Below the pieces are notes generated by a model. It saw only the letters and a program-made list of their open reading frames with translations. It was not told where the DNA came from and did no database searches. Made by a program: the position numbers and the translations under genes. DNA of 64,000 nt from Escallonia rubra (lineage: Eukaryota > Streptophyta > Magnoliopsida > Escalloniales > Escalloniaceae), in NCBI GenBank assembly GCA_033065855.1, contig JAVXUO010000204.1, positions 79,091 through 143,090 on the forward strand, in the 5' to 3' direction. Positions 28,056-47,487 of this stretch are shown here, piece after piece. Numbering within the stretch: the first letter of the stretch is position 1; each line of letters starts with the position of its first letter.

Positions 28056-28060
28056 GTTAT
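28056..28060. repeat. 5-bp target-site duplication, left
   Basis: GTTAT, matching 38671-38675 at the other end of the Tat element. Confidence 0.9.
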
Positions 28061-28087
28061 TGATATGGAAAGAAAATAACATCTGAG

Positions 28088-28111
28088 AGATTGTGACACG
28101 TGTCACAATCT
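28088..28111. promoter_or_regulatory. Perfect 24-bp palindrome with G-box core in the LTR
   Basis: The half-site AGATTGTGACAC is followed directly by its exact reverse complement, giving a central ACACGTGT. CACGTG is the G-box bound by plant bZIP and bHLH factors. It lies about 195 bp upstream of the LTR TATA box and is conserved without change in the 3' LTR (38264-38287). Confidence 0.75.
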
Positions 28112-28303
28112 GGTACGCTCAAAACTGCTACTTCCTTAATGAAGAAGTAGAGAGTAGTAACCCCTCACCTTCCCACTTCTTACCCATCATGGCAATAAAC
28201 CCTGCTTAATAGCGGTAACTGCCCATTAAGAGGAATGACCCCTCATTAGACTGGTAACTCCCGAGTTAAAGGGAGGATAACTAACCACTAAGGAGGGTGG
28301 ACT

Positions 28304-28311
28304 TTATAAAA
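28304..28311 (+). promoter_or_regulatory. LTR TATA box
   Basis: TATAAAAG in the context 'gtggactttataaaaggg'. It lies 225 bp upstream of the gag ATG and is the likely core promoter of the element. Confidence 0.75.
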
Positions 28312-28498
28312 GGGAAAGAAAAAGAGCAATGTGAGGTAAGTAACTTAATCTGAGTTTACACTAAATCCATCTTAAGCATTTCCTGACTTAAGCATCGGAG
28401 ATTTCCCGCCGGAAATCTCTCCGGCGAGTAACCGGTGTTGTCTTTTTGTTGCGCAGGTCTATTCACGAATCAGGTTCCGGATTTCATCCACAACATTT

Positions 28499-28516
28499 TG
28501 GCGCCATCCGTGGGAC
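28499..28516 (+). promoter_or_regulatory. Primer-binding site
   Basis: TGGCGCCATCCGTGGGAC begins three bases after the LTR. Its first seven bases pair with a tRNA 3' end GGCGCCA, as in plant tRNA-Asp; the exact tRNA is not settled by eye. Confidence 0.7.
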
Positions 28517-28535
28517 CGAAATTCGTAAATAGACC

Positions 28536-30065
28536 ATGGCTCAAAATCCTCATCCCCAAATTCCGCAAGATGGCGCACTCGCGTCAAGCTCGTCATCAAC
28601 ACTGCTCCGCGACCTTACTCGTGGTGGAGCTACCTCCCGACCGGCAGATCGTGGGAAAGCGGTGATGGAAACCCCTATAGTCACAATGGCAGCACTGGCA
28701 ATTGCCATGGCTGCGCCCCTTCCCACAAACCTTGCCTCAACTCCACAGAACTCGGCTGGTCCATCTGAACCTCCAACTGTCAGAATCACTACGGTTGCTC
28801 CCACCAATATCATTCCACCTGCTGGCGACCACCAAGCTGATCTACTTGCTGTCATTCAAACAATGCAACGATCCATCGAAAAGTTGCAAGCCGCCATTGA
28901 AAACCCACCTTTGCAACTAGAGCCTCCTCGGCCTCTTAAGGCAAAGCCAATAACTGACGCGCAGAGGCAATCTGTCCGTCAGCGATTGACTTTCCATGAG
29001 GGACCAAGTCGCCCTAAAGTGCGAGATGGGGTACATAATAACCAGCAGGTGATACAATTAGAAGATGAATATTCTGATAACGAGCGACGCAACCCAAGAT
29101 CCAAGAGACACGAAGAGAGCTACTGCGAAGCTCAATCCACCAGGAACAATCCTGGTGATCACCGGGCAGAACGCTATTCCAACGCTCCAATCATCATTGG
29201 GCGACCGTTCGTAGAAGAAGTTGATCTCTTCCCGGTTCCCTCCAACTTCAAAATGCCTCCATGTGAATCATATGATGGCATAGGACATCCAATGGAGCAC
29301 CTGGCTCGTTTTACCTCGGGCATGAATTTACATTTGGTCCCTGATCAGATCATGTGCAGAGCATTTCCTGTGACGCTGAAAGGAGTCGCGCATGTGTGGT
29401 TCCAACACCTGACACCTCGCTCCATTTCATGCTGGGCTCAATTAGCTGAATCTTTTCGGAGCAATTTTCTCACAAGCCGTGTGCAAAGGAAGAATTCCTC
29501 GGCTCTCTTTCGAATGGTCCAGGGGCCAAAAGAATCATTAAAGTCATATTCTGCCCGCTTTAACTCTGAGAAACTTCTCATTGACCATTTGGACCCAGGG
29601 GTTACATTCGCGGCAATGGCCAGAGGAGTGAGACCAAGCACACCCTTACGATTCTCATTAAACAAGCGTCCGCCAGAAAACATGACGGACCTCCTTGACA
29701 GGGTGGAAAAGTATCTTCGGGCTGAAGAAGATTCAATAACCTCGCAGCACGAAGAAGTGCACGCTGGACACAAAAGACAAGATCGTCCCGAAGGGGGAAA
29801 TTCAAACGACGCCAAGCGCTCGAGGGCAATACTCCCAATACTCCCCAAGTCGTTTACCCCACTCAATACTCCCCGGGGGCACATCCTCAACCAGATCAAG
29901 AGCCAAAGCATCCTCAAATGGCCGAAACCTATGAGAGGACCGACCGACAAAAGAGACTCCCAGCTATATTGTCATTTCCATAAAGATCACGGGCATACAA
30001 CCGATGAATGCAAGGTGCTTCAGCGTGAGATTGAAAACCTCATAGCCAAAGGACATCTCAAATAG
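28536..30065 (+). CDS. gag: Gag polyprotein of Tat element (509 aa)
   Basis: Structural protein that packages retrotransposon RNA into cytoplasmic particles. The ATG lies in a strong ACCATGG context 40 bp after the 5' LTR. Residues 1-220 are Pro/Ala/Arg-rich and poorly structured. Residues about 225-400 form the retrotransposon gag domain (SYDGIGHPMEHLARF..., AFPVTLKGVAHVWF, SFRSNF, with acidic helix ...RVEKYLRAEEDS). The C-terminus ends in a CX2HX4HX4C knuckle (CHFHKDHGHTTDEC, about 480-493) instead of the common CX2CX4HX4C. The frame stops with TAG at 30063-30065, while protease motifs continue in the same frame, so the stop may be a mutation or a gag-pro boundary. The frame itself is intact. 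Confidence 0.9.
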   Translation: MAQNPHPQIPQDGALASSSSSTLLRDLTRGGATSRPADRGKAVMETPIVTMAALAIAMAAPLPTNLASTPQNSAGPSEPPTVRITTVAPTNIIPPAGDHQADLLAVIQTMQRSIEKLQAAIENPPLQLEPPRPLKAKPITDAQRQSVRQRLTFHEGPSRPKVRDGVHNNQQVIQLEDEYSDNERRNPRSKRHEESYCEAQSTRNNPGDHRAERYSNAPIIIGRPFVEEVDLFPVPSNFKMPPCESYDGIGHPMEHLARFTSGMNLHLVPDQIMCRAFPVTLKGVAHVWFQHLTPRSISCWAQLAESFRSNFLTSRVQRKNSSALFRMVQGPKESLKSYSARFNSEKLLIDHLDPGVTFAAMARGVRPSTPLRFSLNKRPPENMTDLLDRVEKYLRAEEDSITSQHEEVHAGHKRQDRPEGGNSNDAKRSRAILPILPKSFTPLNTPRGHILNQIKSQSILKWPKPMRGPTDKRDSQLYCHFHKDHGHTTDECKVLQREIENLIAKGHLK

Positions 30066-30493
30066 TTCATCAAGGCCAATGATCGACAGCAAAATGGAAT
30101 AAGATATTAGCGGAGAACAGATGAGACATTACCAAAAGATCCCCCGGTGATAAACACCATTTTCGGAGGATCGAGCGCTGGAGGACTATCTGGATCTTCC
30201 TGAAAAGCCTACGCATGGCAAGTTAATCTAACGCAAGGACCAACCAAGCGGCCGAGAGCATCCACTTCTTTGGAGTTCAATGACGCAGATCTTGACGGAA
30301 TAAGTCTGCCGCACGATGATGCCTTAGTCATCACTCTACGCATAGATGCTTTCCAAGTTAAACGCATGTTGGTCGACACAGGGAGTTCAACCGATATTAT
30401 CTTTGAAGATGGTTTTATCAGATAGGGATTTCTGATGATAGGGTAAAGCCAATATCTTCTCCTTTATATGGCTTTACAGGCGCCTCCGCCCCA
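30066..30493 (+). pseudogene. Aspartic protease region (interrupted)
   Basis: Between gag and the RT frame, in the gag frame, lies MLVDTGSSTDIIF (Asp at 30375-30377), the active-site motif of retroviral-type aspartic protease. The segment has another stop before the motif. Shortly after it, near 30415-30423, a stop is met and homology passes to the next reading frame (ISDDRVKPISSPLYGFTGASAPVKG), so a frameshift is present. The protease would cleave Gag-Pol; in this copy it cannot be made as one piece. Confidence 0.8.
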
Positions 30494-32911
30494 GTGAAAG
30501 GAATTGCTTCTCTCACTGTCGTCGTTGGGGAAGCACCTCAACAGGCACTCCATACACTTGATTTCCTCATTGCCAAGGTCAAATCGTCGTATAACGGGAT
30601 TTTGGGCCGCACAGGCCTTAACAAGCTACAAGCAGTAGCTTCGACCTACCACCTTGTCATGAAATTCCCCACCCCAGTAGGAGTTGGTTTCGTAAAAGGC
30701 GATCAGACCCTTGCTCGAAGATGCTACATAGCCTCTTGCAGAGTTGAAGAAACCCTATCGATTGATGATCAGCGTGATGAGAAGGCGCTAAGGCGCGCAG
30801 AGCCTGTGGAAGCTCTTATCTCAATACCACTCGTAGAAGGAGATAATGAACGATACGTAAGGATTGGCTCTATGCTAGAGCCGACAATTCGAGAGCAGTT
30901 GATCTCTTTCCTTCGATCCAACATGGACCTCTTCGCGTGGAGCGTGGCCGACATGCCAGGTATAGACCCATCCGTAATCACACATCGACTTTCAGTCAAT
31001 CCCGTATGCAAGCCCGTTAAGCAAAAGAAGCGACCCTTCGCACCAGAGCGGCAAGTGATAATCAAGAAGGAAGTTGATAAACTCCTAGATGTTGAATTCA
31101 TCCAAGAAATCGACTACCCCGACTGGGTAGCCAACGTTGTCATGGTGCCAAAGGGCGAAACGGGCAAGTGGAGGATTTGTATTGACTACACCAATTTGAA
31201 CAAAGCTTGCCCGAAAGATAGCTATCCGCTGTCGCGCATCGACACACTGATTGATGCCACGTTGGGTCATCAACTCCTCAGCTTCATGGATGTATTCTCC
31301 AGCTACAACCAGATTCGCATGCACGAAGACGACATAGCCAAGACAGTTTTCGTCACAGATCAAGGCCTATTCTGCTATAAAGTCATGCCATTCGGCTTAA
31401 AAAATGCAGGCGGTACTTATCAAAGGTTAGTCGACAAAATCTTCAAACCCCTCATAGGAAAAACCATGGAAGTTTATGTAGACGACATGCTCGTCAAAAG
31501 CCTTCGAGCTGAAGAGCACATAGTCGACCTTCAGCAATGCTTTAATCTCCTTCGAGAATTTCGTATGCGCCTTAATCCCACTAAGTGCGCCTTTGGGGTA
31601 TCATCTGGCAAATTTCTCGGGTTTATGGTCTCAGAAAGGGGAATTGAAGCTAACCCTGAGAAAATCAAAGCCATCCAGGAAATGATGGCACCAAGGCGTG
31701 TCAAGGAAATACAGATCCTAACAGGACGAATCGCTGCCCTTAGCAGATTCCTCTCCAGATCGGCCGAACGCTGTTTGCCATTCTTCAAGGCATTGAAGAA
31801 CATAAAAAAATTTGAATGGACGGTTGAGTGTCAAACATCCTTTGACGCATTGAAGGAATACCTAGCATCGCCACCACTTCTCTCCAAACCTGTCATGGGA
31901 GAAGACCTCTTCCTCTACTTGGCCGTTGCTGAGTCTGCGGTCAGCGCAGTCCTAGTCAGAGAACAAGATCGTCAGCAGCTCCCCGTTTACTATGTGATCA
32001 GCAAGGTCCTTCAGGGAGCCGAACAGAGGTATCCCAATGCAGAAAAGTTGGCATTTGCCCTGCTAAACGCTGCTAGAAAGCTTCGACCATATTTTCAGTC
32101 TCACACAATCATTGTGCTCACCGACAAACCACTTAGGCAGATATTACACAAGCCAGCCCTATCTGGTCGCCTCGTTCCCTGGTCGGTCGAGTTAGACGAG
32201 TTCGACATATGCTATAAACCTCGACCCTCAATCAAAGGGCAGGCCCTGGCCAATTTCATAGTCGAGTGCACACTTCTCATTGAAGTCGAAGAGCCTCTCC
32301 TTGGGGCCGAAAAACCTCTCATCCCCGGCCAAACTGGGCTGTTTACATGGGCGCTTTATGTTGATGGATCGTTAAACGCAAGCGGAAGTGGAGCTAGATT
32401 AATCCTCAACGGACCCGATGGCCTAACCGTAGAATATGCTCTTCGCTTCGATTTCCAGGCTTCCAACAATGAAGCAGAATATGAAGGTTTGGTAGCAGGC
32501 ATGCATCTGGCATGTGTAATGCGCACAGCATCTCTCCATGCTTTCAGTGACTCGGCACTCGTCGTGAAGCAGATGCTAGGAGAATATGAAGCAAGAGACC
32601 CAAAAATGGCCGATTACCTGTGTAAAGCGAAAGAGATTGCGAATACATTCACTCTATTCAGAATTACGCAAATTTGCAGAGAAGACAATACTTCCGCAGA
32701 TGCACTCTCAAGGTTGGCCTCTCTCGATCCCTCGGGTTTCGATCGCACAATCCATCTGGAACTCTTACATGAACCGAGCATCGCTGCAAAGGAAGTTATG
32801 CAGACCGAGCATGAACCACCATGGATTGATCCCATCAAGGCCTACCTTCAGGACGGCACACTACCTGCCGACCAGAAGCAAGCCATGAACATAATCCACC
32901 GCTCGGCTTGA
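30494..32911 (+). CDS. pol: Reverse transcriptase with dual RNase H (Pol part 1)
   Basis: An open frame of 805 codons copies the element RNA into DNA. The end of the protease occupies about residues 1-60. The RT core follows (about 165-400: KWRICIDYTNLNKACPKDSYPLSRID, then SFMDVFSSYNQIRMHEDD, MPFGLKNAG, YVDD at 328-331). The usual gypsy RNase H comes next (about 470-590: LYLAVAESAVSAVLVRE, LTDKPLRQIL). An archaeal-type RNase H lies at about 617-760, with acidic residues in YVDGS, NNEAEYEGL, FSDS and DNTSADALSR. The listed start is only where this frame opens; translation would normally arrive from the protease. TGA at 32909-32911 cuts it from integrase in the same frame. Confidence 0.92.
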   Translation: MKGIASLTVVVGEAPQQALHTLDFLIAKVKSSYNGILGRTGLNKLQAVASTYHLVMKFPTPVGVGFVKGDQTLARRCYIASCRVEETLSIDDQRDEKALRRAEPVEALISIPLVEGDNERYVRIGSMLEPTIREQLISFLRSNMDLFAWSVADMPGIDPSVITHRLSVNPVCKPVKQKKRPFAPERQVIIKKEVDKLLDVEFIQEIDYPDWVANVVMVPKGETGKWRICIDYTNLNKACPKDSYPLSRIDTLIDATLGHQLLSFMDVFSSYNQIRMHEDDIAKTVFVTDQGLFCYKVMPFGLKNAGGTYQRLVDKIFKPLIGKTMEVYVDDMLVKSLRAEEHIVDLQQCFNLLREFRMRLNPTKCAFGVSSGKFLGFMVSERGIEANPEKIKAIQEMMAPRRVKEIQILTGRIAALSRFLSRSAERCLPFFKALKNIKKFEWTVECQTSFDALKEYLASPPLLSKPVMGEDLFLYLAVAESAVSAVLVREQDRQQLPVYYVISKVLQGAEQRYPNAEKLAFALLNAARKLRPYFQSHTIIVLTDKPLRQILHKPALSGRLVPWSVELDEFDICYKPRPSIKGQALANFIVECTLLIEVEEPLLGAEKPLIPGQTGLFTWALYVDGSLNASGSGARLILNGPDGLTVEYALRFDFQASNNEAEYEGLVAGMHLACVMRTASLHAFSDSALVVKQMLGEYEARDPKMADYLCKAKEIANTFTLFRITQICREDNTSADALSRLASLDPSGFDRTIHLELLHEPSIAAKEVMQTEHEPPWIDPIKAYLQDGTLPADQKQAMNIIHRSA

Positions 32912-34057
32912 TACGCCATTGTGGAAGACGTGTTATACAAACGATCTTTCACTTTTCCTTACCTTCGTTGTCTCACCCCGACTGAATCCGACTATGCCAT
33001 ACGGGAAGTCCACGAAGGGATATGCGGACAACACTTGGGAGGACGTGCTCTAGCGCACAAAATTCTCCGCCAAGGGTATTACTGGTCGACCATGCACCGT
33101 GATGCCTTGGACTATACGAAGAAATGCGATGCTTGCCAACGTTTCTCCTCGGTCCCCAGGCAGCCACCAAGTCCCTTATCGTCGATAAGCAGTCCCATAC
33201 CATTTGCAATGTGGGGAATGGACATCATGGGCCCTTTCGCTCCGGCTACGGCTCAACGACGATTTGTAATTGTGGCCGTAGACTACTTCACTAAATGGGT
33301 GGAAGCTGAGGCCCTTGCTACAATCTCTGAAAAGAAATGTGAAGATTCCTTTTGGCGTGCCGTGGTTTGTTGCTTTGGAATCCCGCGCGTGCTCATCACT
33401 GACAATGGGAAACAGTTCGACAGTGCCACCTTTTGAACGTTTTGTGCCAACTTAAGCATTGAGCAACGCTTCACTTCTGTGGCACACCCACAAACGAATG
33501 GGCAAACTGAAGTTACGAATCATACCCTTATTTAAGGAATAAAGAAGAAGCTGGACGGCGCGAAAGGACTATGGGTAGACAAATTACCCAAAATCCTCTG
33601 GGCTTATAATACGACGACGAGGACCTCTACGGGCGAGACCCCCTTCAGTTTATCATTTGGAACAGACGCCATCATCCCCGTTGAGGTAGGGTTGTCGTCC
33701 CTTCGACTAACAACTAACGACCCTATCCAAAATGAAGAAGATCTCCGAGCTAACCTTGACCTCCTTGACGAGCGTCATGAACAAGCGGCAGTGCGCCTTG
33801 CAGCCTACAAGCATCGAGTATCCAAATTTTATGACCAGCGAGTCAGACATCGCGCATTCCGAGTAGGAGACCTCGTCTTGCGCCGTATCGAGGCTTCAGC
33901 TCCGCGTGAAGCAGTTGGCAAGTTAGCACCAAACTGGGAAGGTCCTTATAAAGTGGTCAAGCTAGCAGGCCCAGGCGCCTATCACTTAGAACACATCGAT
34001 GGAAGAGCCATACCACGGACGTGGAATGCAACTAACCTAAGGCGCTATTATGCATGA
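32912..34057 (+). pseudogene. Integrase of Tat element (interrupted by two stops)
   Basis: In the same frame as RT, this region carries an HHCC zinc-binding module (HEGICGQH...CDAC at about 33010-33135). The DDE catalytic core follows, with Asp in MGMDIMGPF-like sequence (33215-33240), Asp in ITDNGKQFDS (about 33395-33425) and HPQTNGQTEVTNH (33485-33520). The C-terminal part is FYDQRVRHRAFRVGDLVLRR...WEGPYKVVKLAGPGAYHLE. TGA at 33434-33436 and TAA near 33532-33534 interrupt it; both are one C-to-T step from Arg or Gln codons. The final 121-codon frame (33692-34057) is intact. Integrase would insert the cDNA into the genome. No chromodomain is seen, as expected for Tat. Confidence 0.88.
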
Positions 34058-34431
34058 GCAAGACCGAGGGGGCCCCTGCACCTCTGATTGTTTTCATTCA
34101 TTCACTAGATCTTGCTCATGCTCGGGATTGTTTCTTTTTATTGCTTAGGACTCTACGGCTTTATACAGCCTAGTAGTCTTTAGTTTATTTTTTCAGAATC
34201 GGCTCTACGACTTCGTGCAGCCTAGCAGCCCAAAGTTTCTTTTCCATTAATGTATCCTCATTCATTAGAAATGGAAAGATATTTTGTTATTATTTACTTT
34301 GCAAAGCAAGAATGCCAAAATAGAACTTCAAAGAGTCAAAGATCTTACACACTAAAAGTCCTGAAGCAGCAAAATAAAAATCAAAAGATGCTACAAGGAC
34401 TAAAATCTAGTAGACAAAGCAAAAGCCTATT
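34058..34431. other. Spacer between pol and the antisense gene
   Basis: A 374-bp junction where the sense pol and the antisense gene converge. Two imperfect copies of 'ctctacg(g/a)ctt...cagcctag(t/c)ag' lie near 34150-34183 and 34203-34236. On the minus strand AATAAA (34184-34189) could serve as a poly(A) signal for the antisense gene. Confidence 0.6.
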
Positions 34432-36543
34432 CTAATCATCCTGCTCCGCAACGTCTCTGGGTACTTCTACCTCTTGGGAGTGACCTCCAGCCTGAGGCAA
34501 TGGCGGCCTTGAAGCAGTCACAGACGCTGACCCCAAAGCACCTACACTGCGACTCGCAGAGGGACTGGTGAGCGCGCGAGAACTGGCAGCTTTCTTGCGT
34601 TCAAGCTCTTCGGCCCGACGCTCGATCTCTGAAGTAACCTCTCGGGCGAACTTGTGCTCGTAAATACTCAGGTCAAGCTCAGGATGATCCTTGCAGACAT
34701 CATCCTTGCATTCATTATAGCCATGCACAAGCGCCCCTTTGGAGTCACGAAGACGCTGATCTAAGAAAACCTTAGACCTCTTAAACAGTTGCACAGCTTG
34801 AAACCCCGCCGTGGACTTCTCGACCTCCAAATCCGCGATTCGAGTAGTCTGCCAGGCATTAGACAGTTCCAGACGCTCAACCTTCTTGCTTAAGTCTTCA
34901 ACTTTCTTCTCTGCCTCCCTGCGGAAGTTGTTCTCAATCATCACATTCTTCTTCTCCTCATCCAAAACCTTATCTGCAGCAATCACCTTCTCGGCGCCGA
35001 TCTGCACTTGCGCCATAGCCTATACAACAAAGAGTTAGAATGAAATAACAAAACTCTCAAAAAAGAAGGAAGAGAATAAGAAGTAAACCTGCGACATTAG
35101 CTGGACCATCCCATTGGCCGTCTCCGTGACGCCATAGCCTGAAAGCGTCTTCCTATCCATGGGAATAATTGCGTGGCTAGACCAATCCCATGCCGTGCGA
35201 GGAGACTTAAACACGGACTCATCAATGGACACTCCCCAGGCAGGACGATGCGGAGTATCAGGACGATGCGGAGTATCAGGACGAACAGAAGATGACGTAG
35301 CTCTGCTCCCAGCCTTACTAGAGACCTTTCGTTTCTTGAAAGTCTCCTTGCCCTTGTCCACTGAACTCAAGCCCAAGACAAAGTATTCGGTTTGAGTATC
35401 CGTCGCCTTCGGCTGACCCCCAGAAACCAAAGCACCAAAGTCCAAGTCTTGCATCTCCTCCTCCTCGACTCCATGAATCGAAGCTAGCTCATCAGGGATT
35501 ATATCCCCCAAAACTCCTTGGGTGTTGAACAATGGTTGATCTCATTGCGCTTGTGACGACATGTTTTCTGCACATAAAACACAAGTAAGATTACCATTCA
35601 TGATTAGACAAACTTAAGGTTTGGTAAGAGCTTTACCAGGATCATTTTCGCCCTCTTCCTCTTCCTCTTCCTCTTCATCTTCCTCGTCAACAAGATCTTG
35701 GGGCTCAAGAGGGTAGATGATACCGCACTCGCGGAGCTGATCATTACTCAAAGGATACCTGGACTCTAAAGGCTCGGCCCCCTTAAGCTTCCCAATGTGT
35801 TCAAGGTCAGTCTCCGTTAGATCCGTTTCTTTTAATTTGTTACAGGCTTTAGTCTCGCACTCAGGGAGCCATACACTATTGACTTCCCTCCTTTGAGACT
35901 TAGGCAATCTAACAAACAAATATCTTTCCTTCCAATGGTGATTTGATGACGGTGGATGCGGAAATAGGTTGGCTTCGGCCTTCGAGCGCCGACTCAAAAA
36001 GTGCCAACCTACCTGCTTAGTTATCGCACAGATAGTAAAAAACCATCTGAACACACGAACCCTAGGGTTTAAACCTAGCTTATGGCACTGATAGATAAAG
36101 AAACTCATGAAGGGCCATGCATGAGGAGAAAATTGGCCGGGTGCAAGGCCGTAGACTTTCAAAACTCTGATGAAGAAAGGATGAAGGGGAACCCTAAAAC
36201 CATTGATGAACATATCCCAATAAACTCCAATCTCGTCTAGTGTAGTCATGTTGGCCGATTCATTCTCATCGGGGAGCCTGAGTTTTATAGTCGGCGGAAT
36301 TTCGCAGCGCTCACGGAGAAGTTTCAAATCGTAACTGCTTAGCCTATTTCTAAAAGTGTGCGCGTCAAAGGGCTTAGGATACTGAGCACTCTCCCTTAAA
36401 ACTTCCCTAGCAGGGATCCCTCTTGACTCTTGAAAAGGAACTAAGGGAACTCCGGTTTCTAAAAATAAAGGATCAAAGGTAGGCTCTATCCTTACGCCTT
36501 GAACATTAGGCTCAGAAACACTTTCTTCATCCAAGTTGGACAT
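34432..36543 (-). CDS. Antisense spliced gene of the Tat element (PF04195-like, 'putative gypsy type transposon' family)
   Basis: A minus-strand gene with three exons: 36543-35637, 35567-35089 and 35019-34432. Both introns are 69 bp with GT...AG ends (GTAAAG...CAG and GTTTAC...TAG), and phases match (1 and 0). Spliced length is 1974 nt, 658 codons. Exon 1 holds a domain with HPFFIRVLKVYGLAPGQFSPHAW, FRWFFTI and GWHFLSRR, typical of plant proteins annotated as putative gypsy-type transposon, and ends in an acidic run. Exon 2 is Ser/Lys-rich with an 18-bp duplication (RPDTPHRPDTPHRP). Exon 3 is a Lys/Glu coiled coil. A TGA at 35544-35542 is the only break, one C-to-T step from CGA. Function is unknown; antisense ORFs here are known in Tat elements. 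Confidence 0.82.
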
Positions 36544-36730
36544 AATTTCAGATCAAAACAAGAGATTTCAAAAGAAAATTTGAAAACAAGTTTAAAGCTT
36601 ACTTGAAAGAGAAGAACCTTTGAACACTTTGGAAAATCTCCTTTGAACAAAGCCTCCAAACAACTTCACCCTCTCTCAATAACACTTGAAGAAATGAGAA
36701 GTTATGAAAGGAGTAAAAGGTTTTCCCCCT
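36544..36730 (-). other. 5' untranslated region of the antisense gene
   Basis: No ATG occurs on the minus strand between the TATA box and the start codon at 36543, so the chosen ATG would be the first one met by ribosomes. Confidence 0.6.
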
Positions 36731-36799
36731 TATATAGAAACGAGTGTGTCATCCAACGGGTGAGATCTCGCGACAGTTGGTTTACCCCAGACACGTGGC
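36727..36799 (-). promoter_or_regulatory. Apparent promoter of the antisense gene (G-box plus TATA)
   Basis: On the minus strand CTATATAAG (about 36729-36737) lies about 190 bp upstream of the antisense ATG, and GCCACGTGT (36791-36799) lies about 55 bp further upstream. The latter is a strong G-box/ABRE-type site. Together they look like a compact plant promoter driving transcription toward the integrase end. Confidence 0.6.
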
Positions 36800-36901
36800 A
36801 AGATCCAGTAAAATAACTGGGGGGAAAAATTACCTAATTACCCCACGATTGTGACTACAACATAGCCGAAAGGACGAGCTACTTTGGTCCTAGCCTCTAC
36901 C

Positions 36902-38165
36902 GAGTAGACGAGCTAGTTGCCACGCCTCTATTCGGCCGCGCCGAGTAGACGAGCAGATTGATACGCCTCTACTCGGCAAGACTGAGTAGACGAGCACCAT
37001 GACACGCCTCTACTCGGCAAGGCCGAGTAGACGAGCTAGTTGCCACGCCTTTATTCGACCACACCGAGTAGACGAGCAGATGGATACACCTCTACTCGGC
37101 AAGACCGAGTAGACGAGCACCATAACACGCCTCTACTCGGCAAGGCCGAGTAGACGAGCTAGTTGCCACGCCTCTATTCGGCCACGCCGAGTAGATGAGC
37201 AGATGGATACGCCTCTACTAGGCAAGACCGAGTAGACGAGCACCATAACACGCCTCTACTCGACAAGGCCGAGTAGACGAGCTAGTTGCCACGCCTCTAT
37301 TCAGCCACGCCGAGTAGACGATCAGATGGATATGCCTCTACTCGGTAAGACCGAGTAGATGAGCACCATGACACGCCTCTACTCGGCAAGGCCGAGTAGA
37401 CGAGCTACTTGCCACGCCTCTATTCGGCCACGCCGAGTAGACGAGCAGATGGATATGCCTCTACTCGGCAAGACCGAGTAGACGAGCACCATGACACGCC
37501 TCTACTCGGCAAGGCCGAGTAGACGAGCTAGTTGCCACGCCGAGTAGACGAGCAAATGGATACGCCTCTACCCGGCAAGACCGAGTAGACGAGCATCATG
37601 AGACGCCTCTACTCGGCAAGGTCGAGTAGACGAGCTAATTGCCACGCCTCTATTCGGCCACGCCGAGTAGACGAGCAGATGGATATGCCTCTACTCGGCA
37701 AGACCGAGTAGACGAGCACCATGACACGCCTCTACTCGGCAAGGCCGAGTAGACGAGCTAGTTGCCACGCCTCTATTCGGCCACGCCGAGTAGACGAACA
37801 GATGGATACGCCTCTACTCGGCAAGACCGAGGAGACGAGCACCATGAGACGCCTCTGCTCGGCAAGGCCGAGTAGACAAGCACCTTGAAAGATCTCCACT
37901 CGGCCAAGCCGAGTAGACGATCTAGTTGATATGTCTCCACTCGGCCAAGCCGAGTAGACGATCTAGTTGATATGTCTCCACTCGGCCAAGCCGAGTAGAC
38001 GATCTAATTGGTATGTATCCACTCGGCCAAGCTGAGTAGACGATCTAGTTGATGTCTCCACTCGGCCATGCTGAGTAGACGAGCTAGATGATATTTCTCT
38101 ATTCGGCCAGGCCGAGTAGACGAGCTAGTTGCCTTTCCCTTACTAGACCAAGCCGAGTAGGCGAA
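36902..38165. repeat. 41-bp tandem array with 123-bp higher-order structure
   Basis: About 31 units start with GAGTAGACGA. From 36902 to 37869 three unit types (A: ctagttgcc..., B: agatggata..., C: accatgaca...) alternate A-B-C, so the array repeats every 123 bp at 36902, 37025, 37148, 37271 and 37394. The A unit at 37517 has lost 16 bp. From 37870 to 38154 seven units are of other types not in ABC order. Each unit junction forms a hairpin CTACTCGGC-AAG-GCCGAGTAG. The array lies between the antisense promoter and the 3' LTR. Confidence 0.95.
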
Positions 38166-38221
38166 TTTCTAATGGAAGGAACTGTAGTGATGCTATAATT
38201 CCATATCCTCCGAAAAGAACA
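38166..38221. other. Link between tandem array and polypurine tract
   Basis: Short unique sequence with no feature beyond its position just before the polypurine tract. Confidence 0.5.
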
Positions 38222-38236
38222 TGGAATGGGGGCAAA
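38222..38236 (+). promoter_or_regulatory. Polypurine tract
   Basis: The sequence TGGAATGGGGGCAAA sits directly before the 3' LTR, the place and composition needed to prime plus-strand DNA synthesis. Confidence 0.8.
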
Positions 38237-38670
38237 TGATATGGAAAGAAAATAACATATGAGAGATTGTGACACGTGTCACAATCTGGTACGCTCAAAA
38301 CTGCTACTTCCTTAATGAAGAAGTAGAGAGTAGTAACCCCCACCTTCCCACTTCTTACCCATCATGGCAATAAACCATGCTTAATAGCGGTAACTACCCA
38401 TTAAGAGGAATGACCCCTCATTAGACTGGTAACTCTCGAGTTAAAGGGAGGATAACTAACCACTAAGGAGGGTGGACTCTATAAAAGGGAAAGAAGAAGA
38501 GCAATGTGAGGTAAGTAACTTAATCTGAGTTTACACTAAATCCATCTTAAGCATTTCCTGACTTAAGCATCGGAGATTTCCCGCCGGAAATCTCTCCGGC
38601 GAGTAACCGGTGTTGTCTTTTTGTTGCGCATGTCTATTCATGAATCAGGTTCCGGATTTCATCCACAACA
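38237..38670 (+). mobile_element. 3' LTR of Tat-lineage element (434 bp)
   Basis: Same termini as the 5' LTR, with the 24-bp palindrome at 38264-38287 and TATA at about 38480. By eye it has 8 substitutions plus one indel against the 5' LTR (about 1.8%). It is followed by the GTTAT duplication. Confidence 0.93.
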
Positions 38671-38675
38671 GTTAT
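38671..38675. repeat. 5-bp target-site duplication, right
   Basis: GTTAT, partner of 28056-28060. Confidence 0.9.
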
Positions 38676-46544: not shown

Positions 46545-46990
46545 GTAGATCATTAACGATCTGGATATTAGGAGATCAAGGAGGTTCAGATTCGTGACTT
46601 CAAAGACGAGTAGTCGATGGAGGATGCATTCGAAGCGATGAACGGGCATGATCTTGACGGATGCAAGATCTCAGTCAATCAGGCCCAGTCTCGTGGCAGC
46701 GGCAGTGGCGGTAAAGGTGGTTTTTGCAGTGGTGGAGTGGCGGTGGCCGTCGTGAATAAGGAGGTGGTGGTCATCGCGATGCTAACGGCGTTTCGTATAG
46801 TAGGGGTGGGCACAGAGGTAGCTGTGATTGTGGTGACGGTGAATACGGTAGAGGCGGTCGTTATTCGAGAGATTACGTTCAGCCAAAATCTTGGGGTTTG
46901 TTTTGTGTCAAACTATGAGGGCCTGGGTTTGTGGCTTTTGATTTTATGTCCTTTTTTCAACCTATCCTTGGATTGGCTTCGTCGTGTGTG
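46545..46990 (+). pseudogene. Captured fragment of a glycine-rich RRM RNA-binding protein gene (GRP7/8-type)
   Basis: GRP7-type proteins bind RNA in circadian and cold responses. The fragment begins just after an intron-like acceptor (T-rich stretch then TTTGTAG at 46542-46548). Its first codons resemble IINDRE-T-x-RSRGFGFVTF, with Arg in place of two of the RNP1 glycines and one base missing near 46596-46602. SMEDAFEAMNGHDLDGCKISVNQAQSRGSGSGG follows at about 46615-46710, then a GGT/GGC-rich glycine domain with frame breaks. A TAG (46611-46613) precedes SMEDA. The first RRM half and upstream exon are missing. Retention of the intron edge points to DNA-level capture. Confidence 0.75.
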
Positions 46991-47487
46991 ATAAAAAACT
47001 GAATCATAAACTTGTTTGTTAATCATTATAACTAACCATCCTCTCGTCTGACTTTGTGTGTGTATGTGTGTCTGCGCGCGTGTGTTCGTGTGTGTGAACT
47101 TGTAAGTATCTTGTGCTTGTGAGACTATTTTGTAAATTCCCCTGTGTGTTTGTGTGTGAGGGTGGCGTTCTTGTCCGTGGGGTGTGTGATTGGGGGGCGG
47201 GGGGGGGGGGGCAGGTCGCTGGGTTGGAACTGTGTGTATGCGGGTGTGGGTGGGTAGTTGGAATGTGGGGGAGAGGTGGCTGGTGAAGAAAGTTTTGAAA
47301 ATGGGAGGAGTTTGAAAATTTTGGGAATAAAAGTGAGCACTTTTGACATTTCAAATGCATTTATTACGCCCATTCGAGTTTACCCAATTTTGATGAGTAG
47401 AAGTAGGTTTAGTGCAACATTTTAAAAAAAAAGGTTACCATAATTCAACCGGCCTAAAGTACAATGGGGGCAAAGTGTATTTACCCC

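Follow-up and report, generated by a model that had tools for sequence, protein, structure and literature searches.

The DNA analysed here, referred to as the window, is a stretch of 64,000 nucleotides from Escallonia rubra. It contains an LTR retrotransposon at positions 28061-38670, flanked by a 5-bp target-site duplication, GTTAT. The 5' LTR (28061-28495, plus strand) follows one copy of this duplication (28056-28060) and the 3' LTR (38237-38670, plus strand) precedes the other (38671-38675). The LTR pair is 97.9% identical, differing by 8 mismatches and a single gap over 435 columns, and the distance of 0.019 corresponds to about 0.7-1.3 million years under two assumed rates. The plus strand carries a gag open frame (Retrotrans_gag; 28533-30065), an open frame for RT, RNase H and a second RNase H, RVT_3 (30407-32911), and an integrase (32912-34057) that is interrupted by stops in the window copy. 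Within the pol frame, RVT_3 covers residues 657-770 and lies between RH and integrase, and a second RNase H in this location is the Retand criterion given in PMC6317226. The region between pol and the 3' LTR is about 4.18 kb and the LTR is 435 bp, both inside the ranges for Retand elements in PMC11963269 (2.9-6.6 kb and 315-1194 bp, respectively), and an antisense TRP28 ORF sits between pol and the 3' LTR, as in the Retand lineage. We assign the element to the Retand lineage of Tat, Ty3/gypsy, from its second RNase H together with its antisense TRP28 domain. The sense frames of the window copy are broken in several places, as a first-pass annotation of this DNA had noted: there are 3 stops and a frame change in the interval between gag and RT and 3 stops in the integrase frame. 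Elsewhere in the window, an open frame at 46614-46991 resembles by eye the terminal part of a glycine-rich RNA-binding protein and is surrounded by an inverted repeat (46138-46198/47374-47434).

The antisense gene occupies 36543-34432 on the minus strand and consists of three exons, with its ATG at 36543. Exon 1 (35637-36543, minus strand) contains the start codon and a TRP28 domain (Transposase_28, PF04195; 36028-36222, minus strand; E 3.7e-17). It is followed on the same strand by intron 1 (35568-35636; 69 nt, GTAAAG...TGCAG, phase 1), by exon 2 (35089-35567), which encodes a linker predicted to be disordered, by intron 2 (35020-35088; 69 nt, GTTTAC...TATAG, phase 0), and by exon 3 (34432-35019), for which long, coiled-coil-like helices are predicted. 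Both introns have GT-AG ends. An AATAAA on the minus strand at 34184-34189, 3' to the antisense stop, was noted by eye as a possible poly(A) signal, and the antisense and sense units converge near 34.1 kb. The spliced length is 1974 nt, or 658 codons counting the final stop, with one internal stop at codon 311 (35542-35544, minus strand) that is found in 1 of 37 copies. The first-pass annotation, which had proposed a three-exon minus-strand gene with two phase-consistent introns of 69 nt and 658 codons with a single stop, was thus exact. Identical junctions are used by NCBI gene models, which are themselves predictions. Long open antisense frames were also found in other families; among the 150 of 941 PF04195 candidates that were scored, a dozen have 653-658 residues and are free of stops. 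Five gene models from E. herrerae that resemble the antisense gene (P0010, P0058, P0062, P0065 and P0067) carry host or integrase domains according to Pfam; these are probably annotation fusions.

A structural model of the exon 1 product (302 residues; mean pLDDT 71.3, pTM 0.70, both ends low) gave no useful match for the TRP28 region in the PDB or among viral models. The model of a full-length relative, P0034, is of low confidence (mean pLDDT 49.7); it has a disordered linker, and residues 439-601 form long helices, which may be read as a coiled coil. Exon 2 of the window copy encodes a basic cluster, KKRKV (35323-35337, minus strand), which we take to resemble a nuclear signal, and 38 of 39 relatives, including those of grasses, have at least three consecutive K/R residues in the middle of the protein. 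From these models, the product would be a protein of approximately 650 residues with a TRP28 domain, an acidic disordered linker bearing the basic cluster, and coiled-coil-like helices. We infer that such a protein would enter the nucleus and associate with itself.

A putative antisense promoter was identified 5' to the start codon. Its TATA box, TATATAA, begins at 36736 (36730-36736, minus strand), and a G-box, CACGTG (36792-36797, minus strand), is kept in 33 of 37 copies. In the region examined, up to 36950, the only upstream ATGs are at 36863 and 36752 and both lie 5' to the TATA box, which agrees with the earlier description of a TATA box and G-box followed by no ATG before the start codon. 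Seven upstream regions were compared: those of the window, one relative of its own family and five other families. The distance from G-box to TATA box is 61-63 bp in five of the seven, and one (L086) has the G-box only. In the most distant family, L087 (C1673:18000-19910), the core of the repeat array described below is present and the G-box and TATA box are absent at the usual place. There is also a donor-like sequence, TTTCAA/GTAAGC, in the 5' leader at about 36612 on the minus strand; no clear acceptor was seen by eye between it and the start codon.

Upstream of the promoter, on the side of the 3' LTR, lie about 30 tandem units of 41 bp (36900-38133, no strand assigned). The palindrome TCTACTCGGC-NNN-GCCGAGTAGA matched 28 times within this array and nowhere else in the window when up to 3 mismatches were allowed, and it had no matches in 100 shuffles. 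Arrays are present in all seven upstream regions; their main spacings range from 34 to 47 bp and their linkers differ. Per region, 5 to 31 places matched the left half, GCTCGTCTACTCGG, with up to 2 mismatches, whereas shuffled sequences averaged 0 to 0.04. The motif had served as the seed of that search; an independent, unseeded check was provided by Tandem Repeats Finder, whose units share the core in every one of the seven upstream regions. Among 112 palindromes, with up to 3 mismatches allowed in each arm, there were 95 one-sided changes and 3 two-sided changes that kept the pairing. A function of the repeats as an RNA hairpin is disfavoured by the absence of a compensatory pattern; one-sided changes would be more in keeping with a protein site in double-stranded DNA than with a hairpin, as a preference between the two rather than proof of either. 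Binding of the TRP28 protein to the array beside its own promoter is a hypothesis that we hold with considerable doubt.

The conservation of the introns was examined in 40 aligned copies from the same 566-Mb genome, the 40 that were scored among 234 search candidates. The introns were readable in 38 of these, L036 and L040 being broken there. GT-AG ends are kept at intron 1 in 35 of the 38 copies and at intron 2 in 37. With the other-family loci counted too, broken splice sites occur in single copies (L013, L014, L023, L073 and L075 for intron 1, L030 for intron 2). Of the 38, 36 have an intron 1 of 69 nt; within the family, intron 1 has 10 shared variants per 100 sites, compared with 17-22 in the exons. 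Intron 2 varies from 55 to 70 nt, often not by multiples of three, whereas shared indels in the exons are in frame. Sequence identity drops to 40-79% for the two introns in distant relatives, but their positions are unchanged. All eight loci of other families in which intron 2 is present (L070-L077) have GT-AG ends there.

In a related lineage, intron 2 is missing precisely from splice site to splice site, and the spliced frame stays open. With up to 3 mismatches allowed, the junction without intron 2 was found at 45 places in the genome and the intron-containing form at 110 (backward-pattern controls, 0). The spliced form of junction 1 was found at 0 places in the genome, compared with 179 for the unspliced donor (backward control, 6). 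The junction patterns behaved as intended on 55 loci. Seven sequences without intron 2 form one clade with a support of 100; among these, L078 is missing most of exon 1. Since another member, L084, retains the antisense promoter and the repeat array, this lineage is an element family, and its interpretation as a processed pseudogene was ruled out. In the same lineage, intron 1 is in frame and free of stops (around 1075-1145 in L069), and some of the E. herrerae gene models run through intron 1. In light of these two observations intron 1 may be optional; if retained, it would add 23 residues. This lineage, that of L069 and L082, includes at least eight copies that share one TRP28 score and have an open frame of 653 residues, and in the tree L069 is almost identical to L082. 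Given such alike copies, the lineage looks recently active.

Selection on the spliced frame was assessed in 37 of the 40 copies, after removal of two that are truncated (L036 and L040) and of L029, a near copy of L028. L029 (C1389) and L028 (C1390) are near-identical copies by contig ends and are perhaps one locus assembled twice. Badly aligned stretches, in L016 and others, were masked before counting. Variants were called private when present in one copy, most of these having arisen after insertion, and shared when present in at least three copies, most of these coming from the transmitted lineage. The ratio of nonsynonymous to synonymous changes was 373/164 (2.27) for private and 138/227 (0.61) for shared variants (OR 0.27, p 5.3e-21; here and below, selection p-values assume independence of sites). 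Private variants therefore look neutral in the antisense frame and shared ones constrained. Private variants are nearly even over the three codon positions (184, 155, 198), in contrast to shared variants (69, 71, 225). Each exon gave the signal when taken alone: exon 1, OR 0.22, p 3e-12; exon 2, OR 0.27, p 1e-5; exon 3, OR 0.34, p 5e-6. Frames shifted relative to the antisense frame were without it (OR 1.72 and 1.36). With transversions only, in unmasked alignments, the signal was weaker yet still there (OR 0.41, p 9.5e-4). One of the sense frames over the exons also shows a drop, with OR 0.33, which we attribute to third positions that it shares with the antisense frame. Shared stops number 10-21 in the sense frames across the exons, compared with 2 in the antisense frame. 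For indels with the rarer state in at least three copies, the length is a multiple of three in all 4 cases within exons and in 1 of 19 outside (p 5.6e-4); among exon indels found in fewer copies, 36 of 55 are frameshifts. One 18-nt difference is private to the window copy.

Similar results were obtained from more distant comparisons. dN/dS between the window copy and its relatives was 0.07-0.18 in 10 of 13 comparisons, dS being saturated in the other three, and shifted frames gave values greater than 1. Alignments A2 and A3 were made without L070, L073, L075 and L077; L073 and L077 had stops in the chosen stretch, and L070 and L075 were left out along with them. A dN/dS comparison had been proposed by the first-pass annotation, and the values obtained here are well below 1. 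In an identical set of 19 copies, the ratio test gave OR 0.23 for the antisense gene and 0.22 for pol, and gag, for which 17 copies were used, gave 0.36 (the L068 copy was dropped from the gag and pol sets). The antisense gene is conserved about as strictly as RT.

The first-pass annotation had further suggested that the antisense gene is better preserved than pol and that this hints at selection acting apart from retrotransposition. That suggestion did not hold. Stops per kb are alike, at 0.70 for the antisense gene (19 copies), 0.81 for gag (17 copies) and 0.63 for pol (19 copies), and unmasked frameshifts per kb are 1.31, 0.19 and 0.78, respectively. Intact copies number 0 of 19 for the antisense gene, 5 of 17 for gag and 1 of 19 for pol. 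The window copy itself has 1 antisense break compared with about 7 in approximately 5.5 kb of sense coding sequence, a difference within chance (Poisson P 0.28), and better preservation than pol was accordingly rejected. Since the constraint lies in shared variants, which come from the transmitted lineage, and has about the strength of that seen in RT, it is most simply explained by selection through retrotransposition. There is no pointer here to any role beyond the element's own spread.

Selection in the spliced frame, the behaviour of the introns, a lineage from which intron 2 is exactly missing and the conserved promoter spacing together argue for a spliced gene with its own promoter. As far as can be judged from sequence, it is probable that this accessory gene of a Retand-type retrotransposon is genuine, that it has its own promoter and two introns predicted to be removed by the host, and that it encodes a nuclear, self-associating regulator. 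The antisense transcript would start at its own promoter, on the strand opposite to gag-pol, and the host would splice both introns. Because these introns face antisense, copying of the sense genomic RNA would not reveal them as introns, and they would survive transposition. The predicted dimer or oligomer would enter the nucleus and regulate the element's own transcription or nuclear steps, possibly by binding the palindromic array beside the promoter. The fullest version of this proposal, which we offer tentatively and consider unlikely to be right in every part, is that the TRP28 protein and the array are a regulator/operator pair: a coiled-coil dimer on about 30 palindromes would adjust how much antisense transcription there is relative to sense, or would hold element DNA in the nucleus, the introns would persist because splicing affects the antisense transcript only, and one would have been lost when an antisense transcript was copied back.

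That last step competes with a narrower explanation for intron 2, which is a rival to this one step and otherwise overlaps with the main reading of a genuine spliced gene. There is AG/G at each end of the intron, so an exact DNA deletion between AGG repeats is possible, and the absence of the intron would then say little about RNA-mediated loss. The same applies to a gain elsewhere: with the tree rooted on the most distant lineage, L070 and L077, which has the intron and is a chosen root, the absence is one loss, but a root on the intron-less branch makes it one gain, which is equally simple. Deletion or gain is a serious possibility, although we lean against it. Either way, the segment concerned is exactly GT...AG, and the spliced frame has spread to at least 45 places. 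In addition, loss through cDNA is expected to take the intron nearest the 3' end, and intron 2 is that intron.

Other alternatives concern the gene as a whole. The antisense frame could be a by-product of chance or of constraint on a sense function, its good state reflecting youth; the window copy is indeed young, and few breaks would be expected in any of its frames. We regard this as highly improbable in view of the excess of shared stops in the sense frames, an indel pattern that switches at the exon borders and the low dN/dS with distant relatives. A main function of the antisense RNA, with convergent transcription producing double-stranded RNA by which the element is tuned or silenced, and with a secondary part for the protein, is raised as a possibility in PMC7264820 and would suit the meeting of the two units near 34.1 kb, but amino-acid constraint of about RT strength in all three exons asks for a protein function, and this alternative appears quite unlikely. 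Rather less unlikely, but still doubtful, is that a nuclear protein acts on cDNA, the integration complex or chromatin targeting instead of transcription, and that the arrays are unbound by-products of slippage or RNA hairpins. Roles in retrotransposition and nuclear entry are suggested in PMC7264820, and the period and copy number of the arrays differ between families. However, families with no more than 40-79% identity in their introns still share the palindromic core despite altered linkers and spacings, and the arms of the core change on one side at a time, which does not favour RNA pairing.

Antisense ORFs in Tat elements had been taken as known by the first-pass annotation, and rightly so: antisense TRP28 ORFs occur in 97% of Retand clusters and are predicted to bind DNA (Vicient 2025, PMC11963269). 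As here, those ORFs lie between pol and the 3' LTR, together with tandem repeats and a long internal part; the tandem arrays are described there as highly variable in sequence. That survey lists ORFs of at least 600 bp, or shorter if TRP28 is present, and the word "intron" has no match in its main text. By comparison, in our case separate ORFs are exons of one gene, and we add a selection test, the exact absence of an intron in one lineage and a repeat core across diverged families. The antisense gene23 of maize Grande is transcribed from a promoter of its own, and its product is nuclear (PMC7264820, reviewing Gomez-Orte 2013). According to its description in PMC7264820 and PMC11963269, it resembles the present gene in its antisense location before the 3' LTR and in having its own promoter; the Grande product is nuclear, whereas here nuclear entry is predicted. 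PMC7264820 also calls for a search for antisense and spliced transcripts. In PMC6317226, extra ORFs are counted from at least 250 codons, and the introns treated are those of the Ogre sense transcript, located between gag-prot and RT (Neumann 2003 and Steinbauerova 2008, as cited there). Ogre is likewise a Tat-clade element with an intron, which is removed by the host, as is predicted here, but the Ogre intron is on the sense strand and those described here are antisense, in an accessory gene (PMC6317226). Introns of the antisense gene, a comparable selection test and a palindromic core are absent from the available text of PMC11963269, PMC7264820 and PMC6317226, and a search of the literature other than Gomez-Orte 2013, Kejnovsky 2006 and Steinbauerova 2011 found no paper on Retand antisense introns or a palindromic repeat core. 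Surveys catalogue the antisense ORFs of plant retrotransposons by length; here, genomic data join the pieces as exons of one gene, and the palindromic array is a concrete candidate target for the TRP28 protein. If this is more widely true, Retand antisense ORFs would have to be re-annotated as spliced genes.

Two viral systems offer parallels. The family of repeats in EBV oriP consists of tandem palindromic sites served by a self-associating nuclear protein, EBNA1. The likeness is by analogy only, the proteins being unrelated, and array binding in the present case is hypothetical. The HBZ gene of HTLV-1 is spliced and encodes a bZIP protein. It is, like the gene described here, an antisense gene of a retroelement with a nuclear regulatory product, predicted in our case; the analogy is in the way of working, and homology is not implied. 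HBZ is named in PMC11963269. In contrast to HBZ, the promoter of the present gene is internal to the element and not in the LTR.
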